In this document: one piece after another, positions 21,490 through 29,390 of the stretch
How positions within the stretch are numbered: the first letter of the stretch is position 1
Layout of the letters: each line of letters begins with the position of its first letter
The notes under the pieces: model-generated
The model's input: the letters and a program-made list of their open reading frames with translations, nothing else
Database searches by the model: none
What the model was told of the DNA's origin: nothing
Source of the DNA: Gammaproteobacteria bacterium
Lineage (GTDB): Bacteria > Pseudomonadota > Gammaproteobacteria > Ga0077536
Direction: 5' to 3'
DNA length: 64,000 nucleotides
Assembly (NCBI GenBank): GCA_021773835.1
Contig: JAJFJQ010000028.1
Coordinates: forward strand, 62,001 to 126,000
Program-made: the position numbers and the translations under genes

Positions 21490-22776
21490 ATGGCAAAGCA
21501 GATAAGACGACGAACCGTGCTCAAGGGTATCGCGGCCGCAACCGCAGCAAGCGGCTTGCCACTGTCGAGTAAGGTCTTTGCCGACAACGAACCAATTGTT
21601 ATCGGGTTACCGACCTCACAAACGGCGGCCCACGGTGTAGCCGATGACCTCGACCACTTAAATGGCACGATTCTCGCGATGGAAGAGATCAACGCCGCCG
21701 GGGGCATACTTGGGCGCGAGCTGAAGATCGAGGTCGTCGATACCGATAAGTTATCTCCCGAGGCCTGCGCGGCATCGGTACGCGCGTTAGTCGACGCCAA
21801 AGTCCATGCGATATCCAATGCGTTTCTGTTTGTGCCGATCCCAGCGATGGACGCATCGGTCAAATGGGCTTGCCCCTATCTATCGGGAAACACACAACGC
21901 GCGGCAACTGAAGCCGTGCGCCAGAACCCGGATAAGTATCATCACATCTTCCAAGTCGACCCGTCGGAAGTTCACTATGGCTACCACTTTCCGATCTGGC
22001 TCCAGGCAATGAAAGACCACGGTGCTTGGAATCCCACGAACATGGGTGTTCATATCGTCCAAGAGCAGGTAGCGTACAACCAAACCATCTCGCGTGCGTG
22101 CCAGGACGCGTTGAAAAAGAGCGAGTTCGAACTCGCCGGCATCACCGACATTCAGTACCCGGTGCAAAACTGGGGACCCGTTGTTGAACAGATCCATAAA
22201 GTTGGCGCGGGGGCGGTGATGATCGACCATTGGGTCGCTGCGGAGTTTGCCGCATTTTGTAAACAATTCCGCGCCAAACCCTTAAAGAATTCATTGGTCT
22301 ATTTGCAATACGGGCCCTCGCAACCTGAGTTTCTCGATCTCGCCAGGCGTGCGGCCGAGGGATTTTGTTGGAGCACCGTGATGGGTCTCTACGCAGATGC
22401 GCAAGGATTGGCCTACCGCGAAAAATATAAGAAACGTTTTCCCGGCACGATGGGCGTGGTCTACACCGGGGTCGGTTACGATATCGTCTATTATCTCAAG
22501 GCCGCATGGGAAGCGGTTGGTGATCCGTCAAACTTTGAAGCGGTGTGCGATTGGGTGCGCACACACCCGCACGATGGGTTGTGCGGTCATATCGATATGA
22601 ACAACGAGTACCAAGAGGCCGCGCACTGGCCGGATAACGGCTATGATGTTCGCGCAAGTGAACTCAACCAAGGTGTGAGCCAACTCTACTTTCAGGTACA
22701 AGATCTCGAGCATCGCATTATCTATCCCTTCGAACTCAAAGAAGTCGCCCTTAAGCCGGCGCCATGGTGGACTTAG
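21490..22776 (+). CDS. ABC transporter substrate-binding protein, amide/urea/branched-chain amino acid type
   Basis: Periplasmic binding protein (428 residues) of the HAAT (LivJ/UrtA/AmiC) family. A twin-arginine-like leader (RRRTVLKGIAAATAASG) precedes mature sequence beginning about NEPIVIGLPTSQT; family blocks are NAAGGILGRELKIEV and GYDIVYYLKAAWEAV. GCGGAGG lies just before the ATG. It heads a plus-strand set with two ATPases, two permeases and a DMFase-like hydrolase, so the ligand is more likely an amide or amide-like compound than leucine. It diverges from an acyl-CoA ligase across about 100 bases that must hold its promoter. Confidence 0.92.
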   Translation: MAKQIRRRTVLKGIAAATAASGLPLSSKVFADNEPIVIGLPTSQTAAHGVADDLDHLNGTILAMEEINAAGGILGRELKIEVVDTDKLSPEACAASVRALVDAKVHAISNAFLFVPIPAMDASVKWACPYLSGNTQRAATEAVRQNPDKYHHIFQVDPSEVHYGYHFPIWLQAMKDHGAWNPTNMGVHIVQEQVAYNQTISRACQDALKKSEFELAGITDIQYPVQNWGPVVEQIHKVGAGAVMIDHWVAAEFAAFCKQFRAKPLKNSLVYLQYGPSQPEFLDLARRAAEGFCWSTVMGLYADAQGLAYREKYKKRFPGTMGVVYTGVGYDIVYYLKAAWEAVGDPSNFEAVCDWVRTHPHDGLCGHIDMNNEYQEAAHWPDNGYDVRASELNQGVSQLYFQVQDLEHRIIYPFELKEVALKPAPWWT

Positions 22777-23498
22777 ACCGCTCTCCCTTATTCGACTGCA
22801 CCGGGATCTGTCTCGACCTTGGTGGCCGCGAGATCCTCAACGACATATCACTGCGAGTCGAGTCCGGCGAGGTCCTTGGCATCATCGGCCCGAATGGTGC
22901 CGGTAAAACAAGTCTCTTTGAAGTACTTAGTGGGCGGATACAGGCGCGCTCAGGGTCCATTCGATTTCGCGGTGAGGCCATCACCGATCTCAAACTCTAT
23001 GAGCGCGCCCGTCTCGGTATTGGGCGCACCTATCAAACCCCGGTGGTGCCCGACGAGCTAACAGTCGGAGAAGTGCTGAAGGCCGCGCGCCAGGCATACA
23101 AACCTTATTGCACCCGTCACCAAGCGGAGTGGGCCTGCGAACTCGTCCACTTAGACATCACCATGCACCTGCCGGCCGCGAGCCTCGAAACCTTGAATCG
23201 ACGAAAATTGTTGCTCGCTTGTTTGTTGATGCGACATTGTTCAATGTTATTACTCGACGAGCCGGCCGCCGGCATGATCAATTCTGAAGTCGACGAATTC
23301 GATCATTTAATTCGGAGACTCTCCAAAGAACTTAACATCGGAATCGCCATTGTCGAACATCGTCTTGAACTGCTCGAAACCATCGCCGACAGCGTCATGG
23401 TAATTGACGCCGGTCAAACGATCGCAAACGGATCGCTCGCCGAAATACTCCACGACCCGAACGTTCACGAAGCCTATTTCGAAAATGGGTCAAATTGA
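22764..23498 (+). CDS. ABC transporter ATP-binding protein, LivG type
   Basis: Cytosolic ATPase subunit (244 residues) of the HAAT importer. Walker A is GPNGAGKTSLFE, the Q-region follows in IGRTYQTPVVP, Walker B is MLLLDEPAAGM and the switch histidine is in IAIVEHRLELL. The usual LSGGQ signature is replaced: the corresponding stretch reads ASLETLNRRKLLLACLL, unusual for LivG and possibly weakening the second ATP site. The ATG overlaps the binding-protein gene by 13 bases and the end overlaps the LivF-type gene by four, pointing to translational coupling. Confidence 0.9.
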   Translation: MVDLDRSPLFDCTGICLDLGGREILNDISLRVESGEVLGIIGPNGAGKTSLFEVLSGRIQARSGSIRFRGEAITDLKLYERARLGIGRTYQTPVVPDELTVGEVLKAARQAYKPYCTRHQAEWACELVHLDITMHLPAASLETLNRRKLLLACLLMRHCSMLLLDEPAAGMINSEVDEFDHLIRRLSKELNIGIAIVEHRLELLETIADSVMVIDAGQTIANGSLAEILHDPNVHEAYFENGSN

Positions 23499-24265
23499 GC
23501 GCACGATGCAACACCATGCCTGTTGACCGACAGCCCGACGACGTCGCACGCCCGGATATCCTAAGTGTTCGTGGGCTTTCGGCCGGTTACGGCCCGATGC
23601 GTATCCTTCATGATCTCGACCTTAATGTGCATGCTGGTGAACGCGTTGGCATCGTTGGTCTAAACGGACACGGCAAATCGACATTGTTCCTCGCAATCGC
23701 CGGCCTCACGGGTTGGCAACGCGGATCGATTCAATTGAACGGTCATGAGGTTGGCGGTACGCGGTCTCAGGGTCCTGGTCGCTATACCCACCGCGTGGTA
23801 CGAAGGGGACTCGCCCTGATCCCCCAAGGCGACGAAATTTTCCATGGACTCACAGTTGAGGAACACCTCGATAGCGGCGCATTCACAAAGACCGCGTGGC
23901 GTGAACGCCGGCGGCGAAAGGCTTGGGTACTCGATGTTTTTCCGCCACTGGCGAAGCTTATGTCCGTTTCTGTAGGGCGACTTTCCGGAGGTGAACGGCG
24001 CATGGTTTGTCTTGGACGTGGGCTGATGTCCGATGCATCGCTGTACTTAGTCGATGAGCCCTCGCTCGGGCTCGCGCCAAAGATCGGCAAGAGTGTGTTG
24101 GACACGCTGATGGCGATTGAATTGGGTGAATCGGCGATGGTGATCGCGGAGCAAAACGTCAGTCTGCTCGAAGGGCGGGTCGACCGTATCATCGGTATGC
24201 ATGCCGGTAAACTTAAAGGTGAAGCCTCAGTATCGCTTGCCGGCGCGATGCGTTGGGAAGCGTAA
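23495..24265 (+). CDS. ABC transporter ATP-binding protein, LivF type
   Basis: Second ATPase of the importer (256 residues). Walker A is GLNGHGKSTLF, signature SVGRLSGGERRMVCLGR, Walker B LYLVDEPSLGLAPK, and the switch region AMVIAEQNVSLLEG. Here the LSGGE signature is intact, in contrast to its LivG-type partner. The start is TTG at 23495, overlapping the previous stop (TTGA); ATG 23516 is an alternative and gives the same domain. An AT-rich spacer of 240 bases separates it from the permease genes. Confidence 0.9.
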   Translation: MSARCNTMPVDRQPDDVARPDILSVRGLSAGYGPMRILHDLDLNVHAGERVGIVGLNGHGKSTLFLAIAGLTGWQRGSIQLNGHEVGGTRSQGPGRYTHRVVRRGLALIPQGDEIFHGLTVEEHLDSGAFTKTAWRERRRRKAWVLDVFPPLAKLMSVSVGRLSGGERRMVCLGRGLMSDASLYLVDEPSLGLAPKIGKSVLDTLMAIELGESAMVIAEQNVSLLEGRVDRIIGMHAGKLKGEASVSLAGAMRWEA

Positions 24266-24505: not shown

Positions 24506-25387
24506 ATGGATTGGGGCATCATCGCCGTCGATGCGTTACAGCTAGCGTGTATTTATGGCACGCTCGCCGTCGGCATTTCGATCACCTGGTCGAGTCTCGG
24601 CCTGATCAATCTTGCCTACGGTTTCGTCTTCGCCGCCGGTGGCTACGGCGCATGGCTCGCGGCGGAACATTTGTCCGAGCATGGGATCGCTGTGATGTCG
24701 GCCGGCATATTGACCGGTGCATTGTTTGGCATCGTAGTGTGGGCGCTTGCCTTCCTGCCGATACACGACAAACCGAATTTCACCATGCGCGGCATGATCG
24801 CAACGGTCGCTATCTCGCTCATCGGTAATCAAACACTCATGTGGTACTTCGGCCCACGTGCTAAGGCCCTGCCCGAGATCTTTGGCTACGCACAAGTGGA
24901 ATATGCAGGGATCGTATTAACCGCCAATACCGCCGGAACAGTCGCCTCCTCTATCGTTCTGCTTGGGGTGGTCTTATGGTGGATGAAGTCGAGCCGCCGC
25001 GGCCTCGAGATCCGCGCGATGATGATGAATCCCCATGCCGCTTCACTGGTCGGCATCGGCGTACGCCGCACCGGTCTCTATGTGATGGCGTTAACCGGAG
25101 CGCTCGCCGGCCTCGCATCGGTGTTGTTGTCCCAGGTTTATTACGTGTCACCCTTCGCTGGTACAACGCCGTTGATCAAGGGTCTCGCGATCGCGCTGTG
25201 TGGGGGACTTGGGAGTATCGCCGGCGCATTGATCGCGGCGGTCATTCTTGCTGTAAACGAAGCTATTACTGCGGCCACAATCGGTGGACAGTATGTCTTG
25301 ATAACTCAATTCGGATTGATCATTTTGATCATTTTGATCCGGCCACGGGGGATCGCGGGGATCCTTGATCGAGCGCGCGAAGCCTAG
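24506..25387 (+). CDS. ABC transporter permease, LivH type
   Basis: Inner-membrane permease of 293 residues with about eight hydrophobic segments. Family marks are the N-terminal LACIYGTLAVGISITWSSLG, GLINLAYG, the cytoplasmic RGLEIRAMMMNPHAASLVGIGVRR coupling stretch and LIKGLAIALCGGLGSIAGAL. It pairs with the LivM-type permease encoded three bases downstream. A GGGGGAAAG ribosome binding site lies upstream. The transported compound is inferred from the island to be an amide. Confidence 0.92.
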   Translation: MDWGIIAVDALQLACIYGTLAVGISITWSSLGLINLAYGFVFAAGGYGAWLAAEHLSEHGIAVMSAGILTGALFGIVVWALAFLPIHDKPNFTMRGMIATVAISLIGNQTLMWYFGPRAKALPEIFGYAQVEYAGIVLTANTAGTVASSIVLLGVVLWWMKSSRRGLEIRAMMMNPHAASLVGIGVRRTGLYVMALTGALAGLASVLLSQVYYVSPFAGTTPLIKGLAIALCGGLGSIAGALIAAVILAVNEAITAATIGGQYVLITQFGLIILIILIRPRGIAGILDRAREA

Positions 25388-25390
25388 CCC

Positions 25391-27043
25391 ATGAGTGAGG
25401 ATCCGAAGCAACGCCGTTGGCGGAACCCCATCGCAAGATGGGGACGCAATGACTCGCCCGATGAGTTGCCGATCCAGGAGTGGCAAGATCCGCTGCAACC
25501 ATGGCGTGAAAACCGCGCCTACAAAGTTCGACTTTTCCGCATTGGGCATTTTCGCTACTACTGGAAATTTCGCGGGCACGGAAGCCGGCTTTGGCACCGC
25601 ACACGATGGTGGCCAACCCGTAGACGGATCCTATTGCTGCGAGGCGGTTACAACCCGAAAACGCTACGTGCGGAAAAAACCATCAGCGACAAACGTCCGG
25701 TGTATTGGATCATGGCCTTTGCCTTGATGGCAATCATGCCGTTTCTCGTACCGCAAAACCTGACCAACACGCTGTTGAGTGCCGCGGCAATCTTCGCGAT
25801 CTATGCCGCGATCAATCTATGTTGGATGCTCGTCATAGGCACCGCCGGTATCTATTCCCTCGCAACCTATTCGGTCGTTGGCGCGGCTGCATACGGTACC
25901 GCTTACTTGTCGATTCAATTCGGCATGCCTTGGTGGAGTTTGCCTTTCTTTGGCACGTTTATCGGTTTGGTCTTTGGCGTGTTGATCGCAATCCCTGCAG
26001 TGCGCCTCGACGGGTTTTACTATGCGCTACTGACCTTAGGTCTAAACGAGTTATGTCGTGTTTACGTCCTGCAATCACGCACCTTTGGCTCTGCGACTGG
26101 CGGACTCTACGGCGCGGAAACCTATATCCCGCAGCAGTGGAGTTCCGAGCATCAACTGATGCTTGGCTATTACGCCAGTGTGGTCGTGATGATCATGGCC
26201 TTGTCGCTATACCGACTCGTTGATGGGCGCCGACTCGGTCGGATACTACGCATGGCACCGGAAAAGCGAGAGGCCTTCGCCGAGGCTTGCGGCGTTAATT
26301 ACCGCCGTGCTCGGATCCAGGTGTTTCTAATTTCATCGACCGGGCTGGGAGCGATTGGCGGTTTCTACGCCGCGCATTTTCGTGGCGCATCACCGAGCTT
26401 GTTTGGTATCGAACTCGTATCGCTTGGACTTGCGATGTTGGTTATTGGCGGCATGCGCCGCGCGGAAGGTGTCGTTCTCGGCACCTTGATAGTCGTATTA
26501 GTGCGCGATGGCTTGGTCACTTGGGGTCCGATCCGATTGATACTGATAGGGATCATCATGCTCGCCGCTGTATTATTTTTGCGCGGTGGGTTGTTTGGGA
26601 TCAAACCGCAATTTAGAGCGTGGCGTGATAAAAAGAAAAGTGAAAACCGCTCAACTCGAGCCGAGAAAGGAGGCGAAATGCTGCCGGAAGAATCTACCGA
26701 GTGCCGAGATAAAGACCAAGTGTACTTTAGGCGCTTCGACAAGATGCAACGCGACTTTCTTAAGACCTTAGTGTGTGATGAAGTGATCGAGGAACATCGG
26801 CGCCAACCACTGGGGCAGCACAGTGAGGCGCTCGAACGACTGCTGCTCTACTTTCGGCGTCAACCGCAACGCGATAAGTACGCGATCCAGGCCATCGAGC
26901 CATTTAAGGCCTATCGCATTGTCGCGCTTTCCGGTCATCGCGGGGTGGCCCCGCGTGAGGTAGAGGAAAAAACCTACCCGTCTCAGGCGGCGGCGTATCA
27001 CGGTGTTTTTTTACGTCGCGTACAAGATTTACTCGAAACCTAA
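25391..27043 (+). CDS. LivM-type ABC permease fused in frame to a DMFase small-subunit-like domain
   Basis: A 550-residue reading frame in three parts. Residues 1 to about 105 form a Trp/Arg-rich cytosolic extension (RFRGHGSRLWHRTRWW is typical) not expected in LivM. Residues about 105-415 are the LivM permease: several membrane spans, CWMLVIGTAGIYSLATYSVVG, LTLGLNELCRVYV, MAPEKREAFAEACGVNYRRARI, ending at the usual GLFG motif. After a charged linker, residues about 430-550 resemble the small subunit of N,N-dimethylformamidase (EEH, YFRRQP, AYRI, VFLRRVQD). An internal ribosome binding site and ATG precede that last part. A tandem TGATAA at 26626-26631 lies in another frame, so a lost stop by indel is possible. 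Confidence 0.8.
   Translation: MSEDPKQRRWRNPIARWGRNDSPDELPIQEWQDPLQPWRENRAYKVRLFRIGHFRYYWKFRGHGSRLWHRTRWWPTRRRILLLRGGYNPKTLRAEKTISDKRPVYWIMAFALMAIMPFLVPQNLTNTLLSAAAIFAIYAAINLCWMLVIGTAGIYSLATYSVVGAAAYGTAYLSIQFGMPWWSLPFFGTFIGLVFGVLIAIPAVRLDGFYYALLTLGLNELCRVYVLQSRTFGSATGGLYGAETYIPQQWSSEHQLMLGYYASVVVMIMALSLYRLVDGRRLGRILRMAPEKREAFAEACGVNYRRARIQVFLISSTGLGAIGGFYAAHFRGASPSLFGIELVSLGLAMLVIGGMRRAEGVVLGTLIVVLVRDGLVTWGPIRLILIGIIMLAAVLFLRGGLFGIKPQFRAWRDKKKSENRSTRAEKGGEMLPEESTECRDKDQVYFRRFDKMQRDFLKTLVCDEVIEEHRRQPLGQHSEALERLLLYFRRQPQRDKYAIQAIEPFKAYRIVALSGHRGVAPREVEEKTYPSQAAAYHGVFLRRVQDLLET
26666..26673 (+). promoter_or_regulatory. Internal Shine-Dalgarno site inside permease frame
   Basis: AAAGGAGG, essentially a perfect complement of the 16S rRNA tail, four bases before an in-frame ATG at 26678. 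It lies exactly at the junction between the permease and the DMFase small-subunit-like domain, where a separate gene would be expected to begin. This is the best sequence evidence that the small domain is also made, or only made, as a free protein. Confidence 0.75.
26678..27043 (+). CDS. N,N-dimethylformamidase small-subunit-like protein (nested, in frame with the permease)
   Basis: Translation from the internal ATG gives 121 residues, close to the 132 of the known DMFase small subunit. As I recall that family, shared features are the helical N-terminal half, an EEH..NP-like EEHRRQPLG, YFRRQP, the AYRI stretch and a C-terminal VFLRRVQDLLE. The small subunit binds the large iron-containing subunit, and here the large-subunit gene begins 25 bases downstream, as expected for dmfA1-dmfA2 order. 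Whether it is made alone, as the tail of the permease, or both, cannot be decided from sequence. Confidence 0.7.
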   Translation: MLPEESTECRDKDQVYFRRFDKMQRDFLKTLVCDEVIEEHRRQPLGQHSEALERLLLYFRRQPQRDKYAIQAIEPFKAYRIVALSGHRGVAPREVEEKTYPSQAAAYHGVFLRRVQDLLET

Positions 27044-27068: not shown

Positions 27069-29390
27069 ATGGCCCAGATAAAAATATTCGGTTACACCGA
27101 TAAGATCTCCGTCAAACCGGGTGACGACATCGCGTTTCACGTCACCGCCGACGGCACCGACACAGCCGATGCCCAACTCGTGCGCCTAATTCATGGTGAT
27201 GAGCATCCCGATGGGCCGGGGTTTATCGAACAAGCGATGGACTGCCCCGCTAATGGTGATTGGGATGTGAAGAAACAATTCACGCAGGTTGGCTCTTATT
27301 TAACCGTTGCCGACCCGGATGGACATCTGCGTCTCGATGGTAGCTTCTCCCTCTTTGCCTTCGTCCATCCAACCGTACCGCAATGGGGCACACGCCAAGC
27401 GATCCTCGGTCGTTGGGACATCACGAGTAACGAGGGTTATTGTCTTGGCATAAGTCAGGACGGTTATCTTGAATTTTGGGTCGGCGATGGCACTGACATG
27501 GACTACATTCGCGCCGAAGTGCCGATGCTCGGTAATCAATGGTACTTCATCGCCGCAAGCTTTGATTCGAACAATGGCCACGCGACATTGCACCAGTGTT
27601 CTGTGTCAACCCGCTACAACAGCAGGCTAGGTAAAGTCGCACCGTTCGATTTCGAGTCGCACGTGCGCGAAACATTTCGATTCCGTGCGAAGAATTCGGC
27701 TGACATTCCATTCGTGATGGCTGGTAGCCGAGATTTTCACGAATTACGTGGACATTTTTTCGGACAGGCCTATTGCGGCAAGATCGATCGGCCGGGGATC
27801 TTCGAGCGAGTTTTATTAGCCGAAGAGCTTGAGTCGATCAAAGCGGGCGATGCGCCGCCGGGATCCGGCATGGTGTGTTATTGGGATACGACTGCTGGCT
27901 ATACGGATAAGGGGATCGGCGACGAGGTCATCGACGTCGGCCCACATCGCTTAAATGCCGCAGGCTTAAACCGCCCTAACCGCGCACAAACCGGCTGGAA
28001 TTGGAATGGTCGCAACGATAGTTTCCGACTTGCGCCGGAGGAATACGGCGGCATCGACTTTCACGCCGATGCCGTGATCGACTGTAAATGGGATGTTATC
28101 CAGACACTTCGTATTCCGGATGAATTAAAGAGCGGCGTCTACGCAATGCGCTTGCGCGCTGGCGACGGTGCAGGACTCGCCGAAGAGTACATCGTATTTT
28201 TTGTGCGCGCGAAAACGCCACGCGCAAAAATAGCGATGCTCATTCCGACCGCAAGCTATCTCGCCTATGCGAATGAACATCTGAGTTTTGACGCCCAAAT
28301 AGTGCAATCCATGACCGGCCAACCACCGATCGTCTCGGAGATCGATATCGAGATGTATCAAAACGAGGAGTTTGGTCTGTCGACCTATGACTCCTACCTC
28401 GACGGCCAAGGGGTCAACCTAAGTTCCTACCATCGTCCCATTGTTAATATGCGACCAAAAGCACGCATGTCGAGCATGGGCATCACATGGCAGTTCGCCG
28501 CGGATCTTTCGATCATCGGATGGCTCGAATCACGCAATGACGACTACGAGATCATCACCGATGAAGATCTACATCGCGAAGGTGTCGACTGCCTGAAACC
28601 GTACAACTGCGTGCTCACCGGCACCCATCCGGAATACACCTCGGAACGGATGCTCGATGGTCTGGAAGATTATGTCGAGGACGGCGGTCGACTCATCTAC
28701 ATGGGTGGTAATGGGTTCTATTGGGTGGTTGGGTTTCGCGACGATGAGCCTTGGTGTATGGAAGTGCGCAAACTCGACGCCGCGATGTGTGCGTGGCGCG
28801 CACGACCGGGCGAGCATTACTTGCAGTCCACCGGGGAGAAAGGAGGTCTGTGGCGACACCGCGGACGGCCGCCACAGAAACTCGCCGGGGTTGGTTTCAT
28901 CTCTGAAGGATTCGAACACTGCCAGCCCTATCGGCGCATGCCGGATTCCTACCATCGCCGCATTGAATGGATCACCGAGGGCATCGAGGGCGAAATCATC
29001 GGCGACTTCGGTCTCGCCCATGGCGGCGCAGGCGGTATCGAGCTCGACCGCTATGACCTAAAGCTGGGCACCCCACCGCATGCATTGATCGTGGCCTCGT
29101 CCGGCGGACATACCGACAATTACGTGCTCGTCACCGAAGAATTACTCTATGCCTACCAAGGCCTGAGCGGTACCCAAGACCATCGGATCCGCGCAGACCT
29201 CGTATACTTCCCCGCGCCGAATGAGGGCGCGGTATTCTCAACGGGGTCAATCGCATTTGGCCAAGCGTTGCCGGTTAATAACTTCGACAATAATGTGTCA
29301 AAACTGCTGCATAACGTGGTCAATACGTTTAGCAGCGATGGACCAATACCCGGAGAGCGATGGGTTTCACGGGAACGACAGTGGCGGTAG
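27069..29390 (+). CDS. N,N-dimethylformamidase large-subunit-like iron amidohydrolase
   Basis: A 773-residue protein matching the length and layout of the DMFase large subunit (about 762): an N-terminal beta domain, a LamG-like sandwich (about 85-255), and a C-terminal Rossmann/GATase-like catalytic domain from about residue 385. The known mononuclear iron site uses two tyrosines and a glutamate with a nearby histidine; plausible equivalents here are Tyr400 (SYLAY), Tyr440 (GLSTY), His520 and Glu522 (THPEY). It should hydrolyse a small amide, not necessarily dimethylformamide. No signal peptide, so cytosolic. It follows the importer genes closely, which argues for import followed by hydrolysis. 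Confidence 0.88.
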   Translation: MAQIKIFGYTDKISVKPGDDIAFHVTADGTDTADAQLVRLIHGDEHPDGPGFIEQAMDCPANGDWDVKKQFTQVGSYLTVADPDGHLRLDGSFSLFAFVHPTVPQWGTRQAILGRWDITSNEGYCLGISQDGYLEFWVGDGTDMDYIRAEVPMLGNQWYFIAASFDSNNGHATLHQCSVSTRYNSRLGKVAPFDFESHVRETFRFRAKNSADIPFVMAGSRDFHELRGHFFGQAYCGKIDRPGIFERVLLAEELESIKAGDAPPGSGMVCYWDTTAGYTDKGIGDEVIDVGPHRLNAAGLNRPNRAQTGWNWNGRNDSFRLAPEEYGGIDFHADAVIDCKWDVIQTLRIPDELKSGVYAMRLRAGDGAGLAEEYIVFFVRAKTPRAKIAMLIPTASYLAYANEHLSFDAQIVQSMTGQPPIVSEIDIEMYQNEEFGLSTYDSYLDGQGVNLSSYHRPIVNMRPKARMSSMGITWQFAADLSIIGWLESRNDDYEIITDEDLHREGVDCLKPYNCVLTGTHPEYTSERMLDGLEDYVEDGGRLIYMGGNGFYWVVGFRDDEPWCMEVRKLDAAMCAWRARPGEHYLQSTGEKGGLWRHRGRPPQKLAGVGFISEGFEHCQPYRRMPDSYHRRIEWITEGIEGEIIGDFGLAHGGAGGIELDRYDLKLGTPPHALIVASSGGHTDNYVLVTEELLYAYQGLSGTQDHRIRADLVYFPAPNEGAVFSTGSIAFGQALPVNNFDNNVSKLLHNVVNTFSSDGPIPGERWVSRERQWR

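Follow-up and report, generated by a model that had tools for sequence, protein, structure and literature searches.

Does the open reading frame at 25391-27043 of the window, by which we mean the whole 64,000-nucleotide stretch of gammaproteobacterial DNA analysed here, encode one protein or two? An earlier note, made from the sequence alone, had read it as a LivM-type permease that runs without a stop into the small subunit of an enzyme like N,N-dimethylformamidase (DMFase), with a second start at the junction, and had left open whether the cell makes a tethered subunit, a free one, or both. It had also warned that a one-base indel might have created the fusion artificially.

The fused reading frame and its relatives

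The claimed passage from permease into small-subunit-like residues is borne out, as the frame is single and open over 550 codons. It specifies, in this order, a basic N-terminal extension, a LivM-type ABC permease, a short basic linker and a DMFA1 domain (Table 1). In Pfam, residues 129-394 match PF02653 (E=2e-23), the final hydrophobic segment ends at about residue 401, and no family is found after the permease, which leaves the small domain uncovered. Among solved structures, the DMFase small subunit 6lvb_B was matched by residues 433-547 (E=1e-9, or E=2e-10 when this part was searched alone). An AlphaFold model built from 42 orthologues, with three plasmid rows left out (mean pLDDT 75.7), places the same domain on 6lvb_B with a TM-score of 0.80 of the target and a Foldseek probability of 1.00; for the permease part the model is similar to type II importers such as 2nq2 and BtuC. 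Sequence and fold both identify the C-terminal part as a DMFase small subunit, as the earlier note had supposed. Model confidence is low for the N-terminal extension and for the linker; the former is retained in relatives with several invariant residues, and R412, K415, E418, R420, R423, G427, G428 and E429 are invariant in the latter. Since both are rich in lysine and arginine, the positive-inside rule assigns the two permease termini to the cytoplasm, where the extension (residues 1-102) probably lies. In public annotation the gene is a 'branched-chain amino acid ABC transporter permease', a name that conceals the small subunit of an amidase family.

Table 1. Positions of the operon genes and of the parts of the fusion gene in the window
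Feature	Position	Strand	Basis or property
Periplasmic substrate-binding protein, LivK type	21490..22776	+	PF13458 E=8e-27
LivG-type ATPase	22764..23498	+	PF00005 E=3e-23, plus BCA_ABC_TP_C
LivF-type ATPase	23495..24265	+	PF00005 E=2e-26; true start may be internal to the ORF
LivH-type permease	24506..25387	+	PF02653 E=1e-28
Fusion of LivM-type permease and DMFase small-subunit domain	25391..27043	+	550 aa, 63.0 kDa
Basic N-terminal extension, residues 1-102	25391..25696	+	26 K/R, 10 D/E
Permease membrane domain, residues 103-401	25697..26593	+	PF02653; type II importer fold
Basic linker of constant length, residues 402-429	26594..26677	+	comparison of relatives
Internal Shine-Dalgarno sequence AAAGGAGG	26666..26673	+	codon-bias and start-site controls
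Internal start codon ATG (Met430)	26678..26680	+	present in all 42 class A loci and in none of 16 in class B
Free small subunit (DMFA1-like), predicted second product	26678..27043	+	121 aa, 14.5 kDa
DMFase-like large (catalytic) subunit	27069..29390	+	773 aa; 6lvb_A E=3e-181; PF20254 E=6e-87

The open frame is shared, at 73% identity, by a near relative that belongs to a different genus. When 84,980 species genomes were scanned, 69 loci were recovered, spread over alpha-, beta- and gammaproteobacteria; this sample is biased toward fusions because two of the six search patterns used fall within the linker or small domain. Of these loci, 66 that span the junction were measured, and in every one the frame is continuous and permease and small domain are separated by exactly 63 nt. 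Searches of whole genomes with the complete protein as query, which are less biased, also recovered only fusions, in 15 of 397 genomes of one order, 2 of 385 of one class and 3 of 398 taken phylum-wide, and none of these positives has a stop between permease and small domain. The TAG of L098 stands ahead of its N-terminus and not at the junction.

This bears directly on the possibility that a sequencing or assembly indel erased a genuine stop. The TGATAA at 26626-26631, which had raised the suspicion, is present and out of frame as described. It is, however, part of CGT GAT AAA, the codons of a conserved Arg-Asp-Lys, and the relatives read through the same residues. Because these conserved codons account for the TGATAA and no relative has a stop at the junction, the warning is refuted; the frame is identical in orthologues of many species, complete chromosomes and plasmids included, so that an indel can be rejected as practically without probability. 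The fusion itself is certain, and the original observation is confirmed in a stronger form than first claimed.

Two of the records (L063 and L082) are titled Oceanobacillus and Klebsiella pneumoniae, names with which their proteobacterial fusion loci are at odds; these are probably contaminations or mislabelled bins.

The internal start signal

The loci fall into three classes. Class A (42 loci, among them the window) has the fusion followed by the large subunit, with no other small-subunit gene at the locus. In class B (16 loci) the fusion is followed first by a separate free small gene and then by the large gene, and in class C (11 loci) the order is fusion, large, free small and a second large gene. 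The sequence AAAGGAGG does stand four bases ahead of an in-frame ATG at 26678, as had been pointed out. This ATG, codon 430, occurs in all 42 class A loci including the window, in 8 of the 11 class C loci and in none of class B, where the codon specifies alanine 14 times and is once a GTG (Val) and once a CTG (Leu).

The residues EKGGE before Met430 are near-identical across all classes, so the choice of codons is a fair test of whether the signal itself is kept. Lys426 is encoded by AAA in 35 of 37 class A genes, compared with 19% for the other lysines of the same genes, and GGA is used for at least one of the two following glycines in 30 of 38, compared with 0 to 7 at four other Gly-Gly pairs. 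Of 25 genes in classes B and C, 24 use AAG for this lysine and one has GGA. The bias at Lys426 ranks first among 335 codon positions with a log10 p of -22.6, a nominal value like all codon p-values here, as the sequences are related and shared ancestry is ignored; the other positions of the same genes are the better control, having the same ancestry as the test site. A Shine-Dalgarno 4-mer precedes ATG430 in 38 of 38 class A genes and a 5-mer in 27 of 38, whereas at six other conserved methionine codons of these genes a match is found in 5 at most. By these codon and start-site controls a chance Shine-Dalgarno sequence is rejected. A single class A locus, L088, has a weak one (AAG GGT GGT GAA ATG).

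Other measures were less telling. A windowed scan for synonymous conservation did not flag the junction, because the relatives alternate between GGA-GGC and GGN-GGA. The hybridisation energy of the Shine-Dalgarno sequence, scored against synonymous shuffles, separates class A from class B (p=3e-6) and from class C (p=2e-5), with few loci singly significant, since the score handles the GGN-GGA forms poorly; it was dropped in favour of codon counts. Accessibility of the mRNA is 0.56 in class A vs 0.48-0.50, a difference confounded by base composition.

Deep relatives have the start at a shifted position. In L098, the permease of which is 46% identical, the sequence is AAAGGAGGTGA, and the ATG lies one codon later, giving the pair AAAGGAGGTGAAGTC-ATG. 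L120 and L121 have an ATG at the same shifted codon, with AAAGGGGG and AAGGGAGG upstream, and L118 and L119 have no methionine there but the start-capable leucine codon TTG behind AAAGGAGG or AAGGGAGG (in L118 as the pair AAAGGAGGCGAACCA-TTG). A shifted start with a retained Shine-Dalgarno sequence is best explained by a function that was kept rather than by simple inheritance.

One could still suppose that the fusion is the sole product and that KGGEM is a protein motif which resembles a ribosome-binding site by chance. Conservation of EKGGE at the protein level in all classes would fit this. Against it, the codons for this peptide are AAG GGC GGC in loci that have a separate small gene and AAA GGA or GGN GGA in those that lack one, Met430 has given way to alanine in most class B loci, and the deep relatives retain the Shine-Dalgarno sequence while moving the start by one codon. 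We regard this explanation as highly unlikely. The pattern of codons makes it very likely that the internal Shine-Dalgarno sequence and start codon are under selection.

Probable duplications of the small-subunit domain

At the window locus the small subunit is encoded solely as part of the fusion, and the selected internal start predicts a free form. In whole-genome searches of 20 class A genomes, only two, both Methylopila, gave a further close small subunit read in its own frame (49-53% identity); one Bradyrhizobium has a second fused copy, and the remaining ones have weak paralogues at most. In the genome of the window there are also diverged free small subunits with their own large subunits, which counts against the dual-product reading.

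In a tree of the small domains, which has few columns and some weak forks, the free genes of class B fall as a single group within a branch that contains the fused domains of that class together with L061 (96, starred), and those of class C make up another group (89), close to the fused domains of class C. The simplest reading of this tree is that two separate duplications of the fused domain gave rise to the separate small genes. The least diverged free copies begin with MLPLEYD or MLPEDAI, which are the residues that the internal start would produce; the former or a near variant is found in seven class C loci, and L070 of class B has MLPEDAIEIDDKD. After duplication the relatives with a separate short gene lost the internal start, the Shine-Dalgarno sequence in B and C and the start codon in B, and retained the fused domain. 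Conversely, L061 (SAR11) and L093 (an Aminobacter plasmid), class A loci that branch beside the B and C groups, have no separate small gene and have kept both Shine-Dalgarno sequence and ATG. In an independent-pairs test both of two contrasts went in the expected direction, a number too small for a significant sign test.

These losses also speak to the idea that the internal Shine-Dalgarno sequence merely makes the ribosome pause once the last membrane helix has been made and so aids membrane insertion without initiating anything. Its location just past the last transmembrane segment is what one would then expect, but a start codon accompanies the signal throughout class A, the signal decays once a separate small gene is present although the membrane part is unchanged, and the early duplicates begin exactly at the internal site. 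Pausing alone is thus very improbable.

The three options named at the outset can be narrowed to both products, since loci that have lost the internal start still keep the fused frame, and the internal start is kept in all loci that lack a separate gene. With considerable confidence we predict from these comparisons that the gene yields a permease-tethered subunit as well as a free one.

What the tethered copy does is less certain. In class B it is 60-68% identical to the domain of the window, vs 35-63% for the free copy, and this better conservation points to a role beyond the supply of the small subunit. That copy might serve the importer as sensor or regulator, with gating by the enzyme or by substrate; both products would then be made, and no enzyme would be tethered. 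The fused domain has, however, kept the fold of the small subunit, and in class A it is the very same sequence as the free form. We consider a purely regulatory role unlikely, though to be taken seriously beside the docking described below.

Class A and class C loci may occur in one cell, as in R. palustris 2.1.18 (L056 and L089, on one contig) and in Bradyrhizobium sp. 141 (L044 and L081).

Operon, substrate and the proposed assembly

The operon on the plus strand comprises a binding protein, two ATPases, LivH, the fusion of LivM with the small (alpha) subunit, and the large (beta) subunit. Binding protein, two ATPases and two BPD_transp_2 permeases, all recognised by Pfam in one operon, make up an importer of the LivKHMGF type, and the LivK-type gene comes first at most related loci. 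The large subunit aligns with 6lvb_A across its full length and has retained all iron-binding and catalytic residues: Y400, Y440, E522, H520 and N548 correspond to Y399, Y440, E521, H519 and N547, which are known as a 2-Tyr-1-Glu iron site and the catalytic His and Asn (PMC7686228). Four further DMFA2_C large subunits are found in the genome of the window (C21:430247, C59:300911, C47:224699 and C71:288629), the first of them about 20-30 kb from glutamine-synthetase-like and methylglutamate-synthase-like genes. On the conjugative Aminobacter plasmid pMDW2 (L093:13709-18452) two close large-subunit copies stand in tandem behind one fusion gene.

The neighbourhood gives a hint at the substrate. 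In L038 and L039 the genes just upstream encode a glutamine synthetase of type III, like GmaS, and proteins resembling N-methylglutamate synthase; parts of this methylamine-assimilation set adjoin L044 and L061, and a primary-amine oxidase is near the class C locus L086. In the genome of the window, genes resembling those for MgsC (52%) and GmaS (660 bits, above the cut-off) are found on the same contig at a distance of about 370 kb. From the neighbouring methylamine-pathway genes, methylamine is a probable product and an N-methylated amide a probable substrate. Hence the substrate is likely to be a small N-methylated amide such as N-methylformamide, on which the Paracoccus DMFase has its best catalytic efficiency (PMC7686228), and the methylamine released would enter the N-methylglutamate pathway. 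The coupled hydrolase and these neighbours point to the amide as the cargo of the importer, too. The substrate need not be dimethylformamide, given that the large subunit is 41% identical to that of the Paracoccus enzyme and lies on a separate branch in the tree. In the SAR11 single-cell genome (L061) the fusion operon lies between N-methylglutamate-synthase-like genes and an ammonium transporter, hinting at a marine use of methylated amides. Many fusion loci (L025, L027, L040, L042, L045, L065, L067, L068, L077 and L095) have beside them a divergent cluster in which a hybrid histidine kinase and a LuxR-type response regulator accompany a gene like that of a binding protein; this cluster may sense the same amide.

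Taken as a whole, we think it quite probable that this is a dual-product gene in an operon for amide uptake and hydrolysis, providing tethered and free alpha subunits. Translation from 25391 would give the LivM permease with a DMFase-type alpha subunit on its cytoplasmic C-terminus, joined at the N-terminus of the small subunit, and initiation at AAAGGAGG and ATG (26666-26680) would give free alpha. Both forms should be able to pair with beta, which is probably inactive on its own by analogy with the Paracoccus DMFase, where alpha is required for activity and lines the entrance of the active site (PMC7686228). Free alpha would enter a soluble alpha2beta2 enzyme, and the fusion would dock the beta dimer at the inner face of the importer, near the exit of the substrate. 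Both forms would be wanted because a LivHM importer has one LivM and the enzyme presumably two alpha subunits. The comparisons show the fusion and its conservation, selection on the internal start and duplication at that point, and from them we infer accumulation of both proteins, docking, channelling and the substrate. That the tethered subunit places the amidase at the importer is plausible, somewhat favoured on present evidence; the preservation of the arrangement in many species suggests direct docking of an enzyme on the importer that feeds it. We likewise lean toward a selected transporter-enzyme assembly, in which part of the enzyme pool is docked and fed and the dual-product gene was split twice, each time by copying just the product of the internal start. 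Physical coupling of importers and enzymes has often been proposed and is rarely encoded as plainly as here, in one gene. Furthermore, the gene can be cloned from culturable species, the loci with their own free-subunit gene are natural controls, and the duplications document clearly how two proteins from one gene become resolved into separate genes.

Three known systems invite comparison. The Paracoccus DMFase (DmfA1/DmfA2, 6lvb) is alike in sequence and fold of the small subunit, and all iron ligands and catalytic residues of its large subunit are shared with that of the window; its small subunit is, however, a separate gene with no adjoining importer gene. In the tree of large subunits the fusion loci, deep L098 excepted, form a separate, starred branch. 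The one-gene, two-product logic is that of Cas11 in cas8/cas10d, the free form being a prediction in our case; other CRISPR systems have the small subunit as a separate gene. In cas8 and cas10d a single gene gives the full-length protein and, from an internal start, a free C-terminal small subunit (PMC11899642). The proteins are unrelated to ours, and as the long product here is a membrane importer, the locations of the two products would differ. In fmdDEF of Methylophilus methylotrophus, binding-protein-dependent uptake likewise stands beside an amide-hydrolysing enzyme, but this is a formamidase unrelated to the enzyme of the window; the Fmd permeases are LivHM-like, and we know of no permease-enzyme fusion there. 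No description of the fusion was found in the titles and abstracts searched, a scope that lacks most subscription journals. The fmd cluster includes a porin (PMC10781810). A parallel to it may exist in Methylobacillus arboreus (L033:9677-10828), where an outer-membrane-protein-like gene, without a match in Pfam and only guessed from its sequence to be a porin, separates the fusion from the large subunit.
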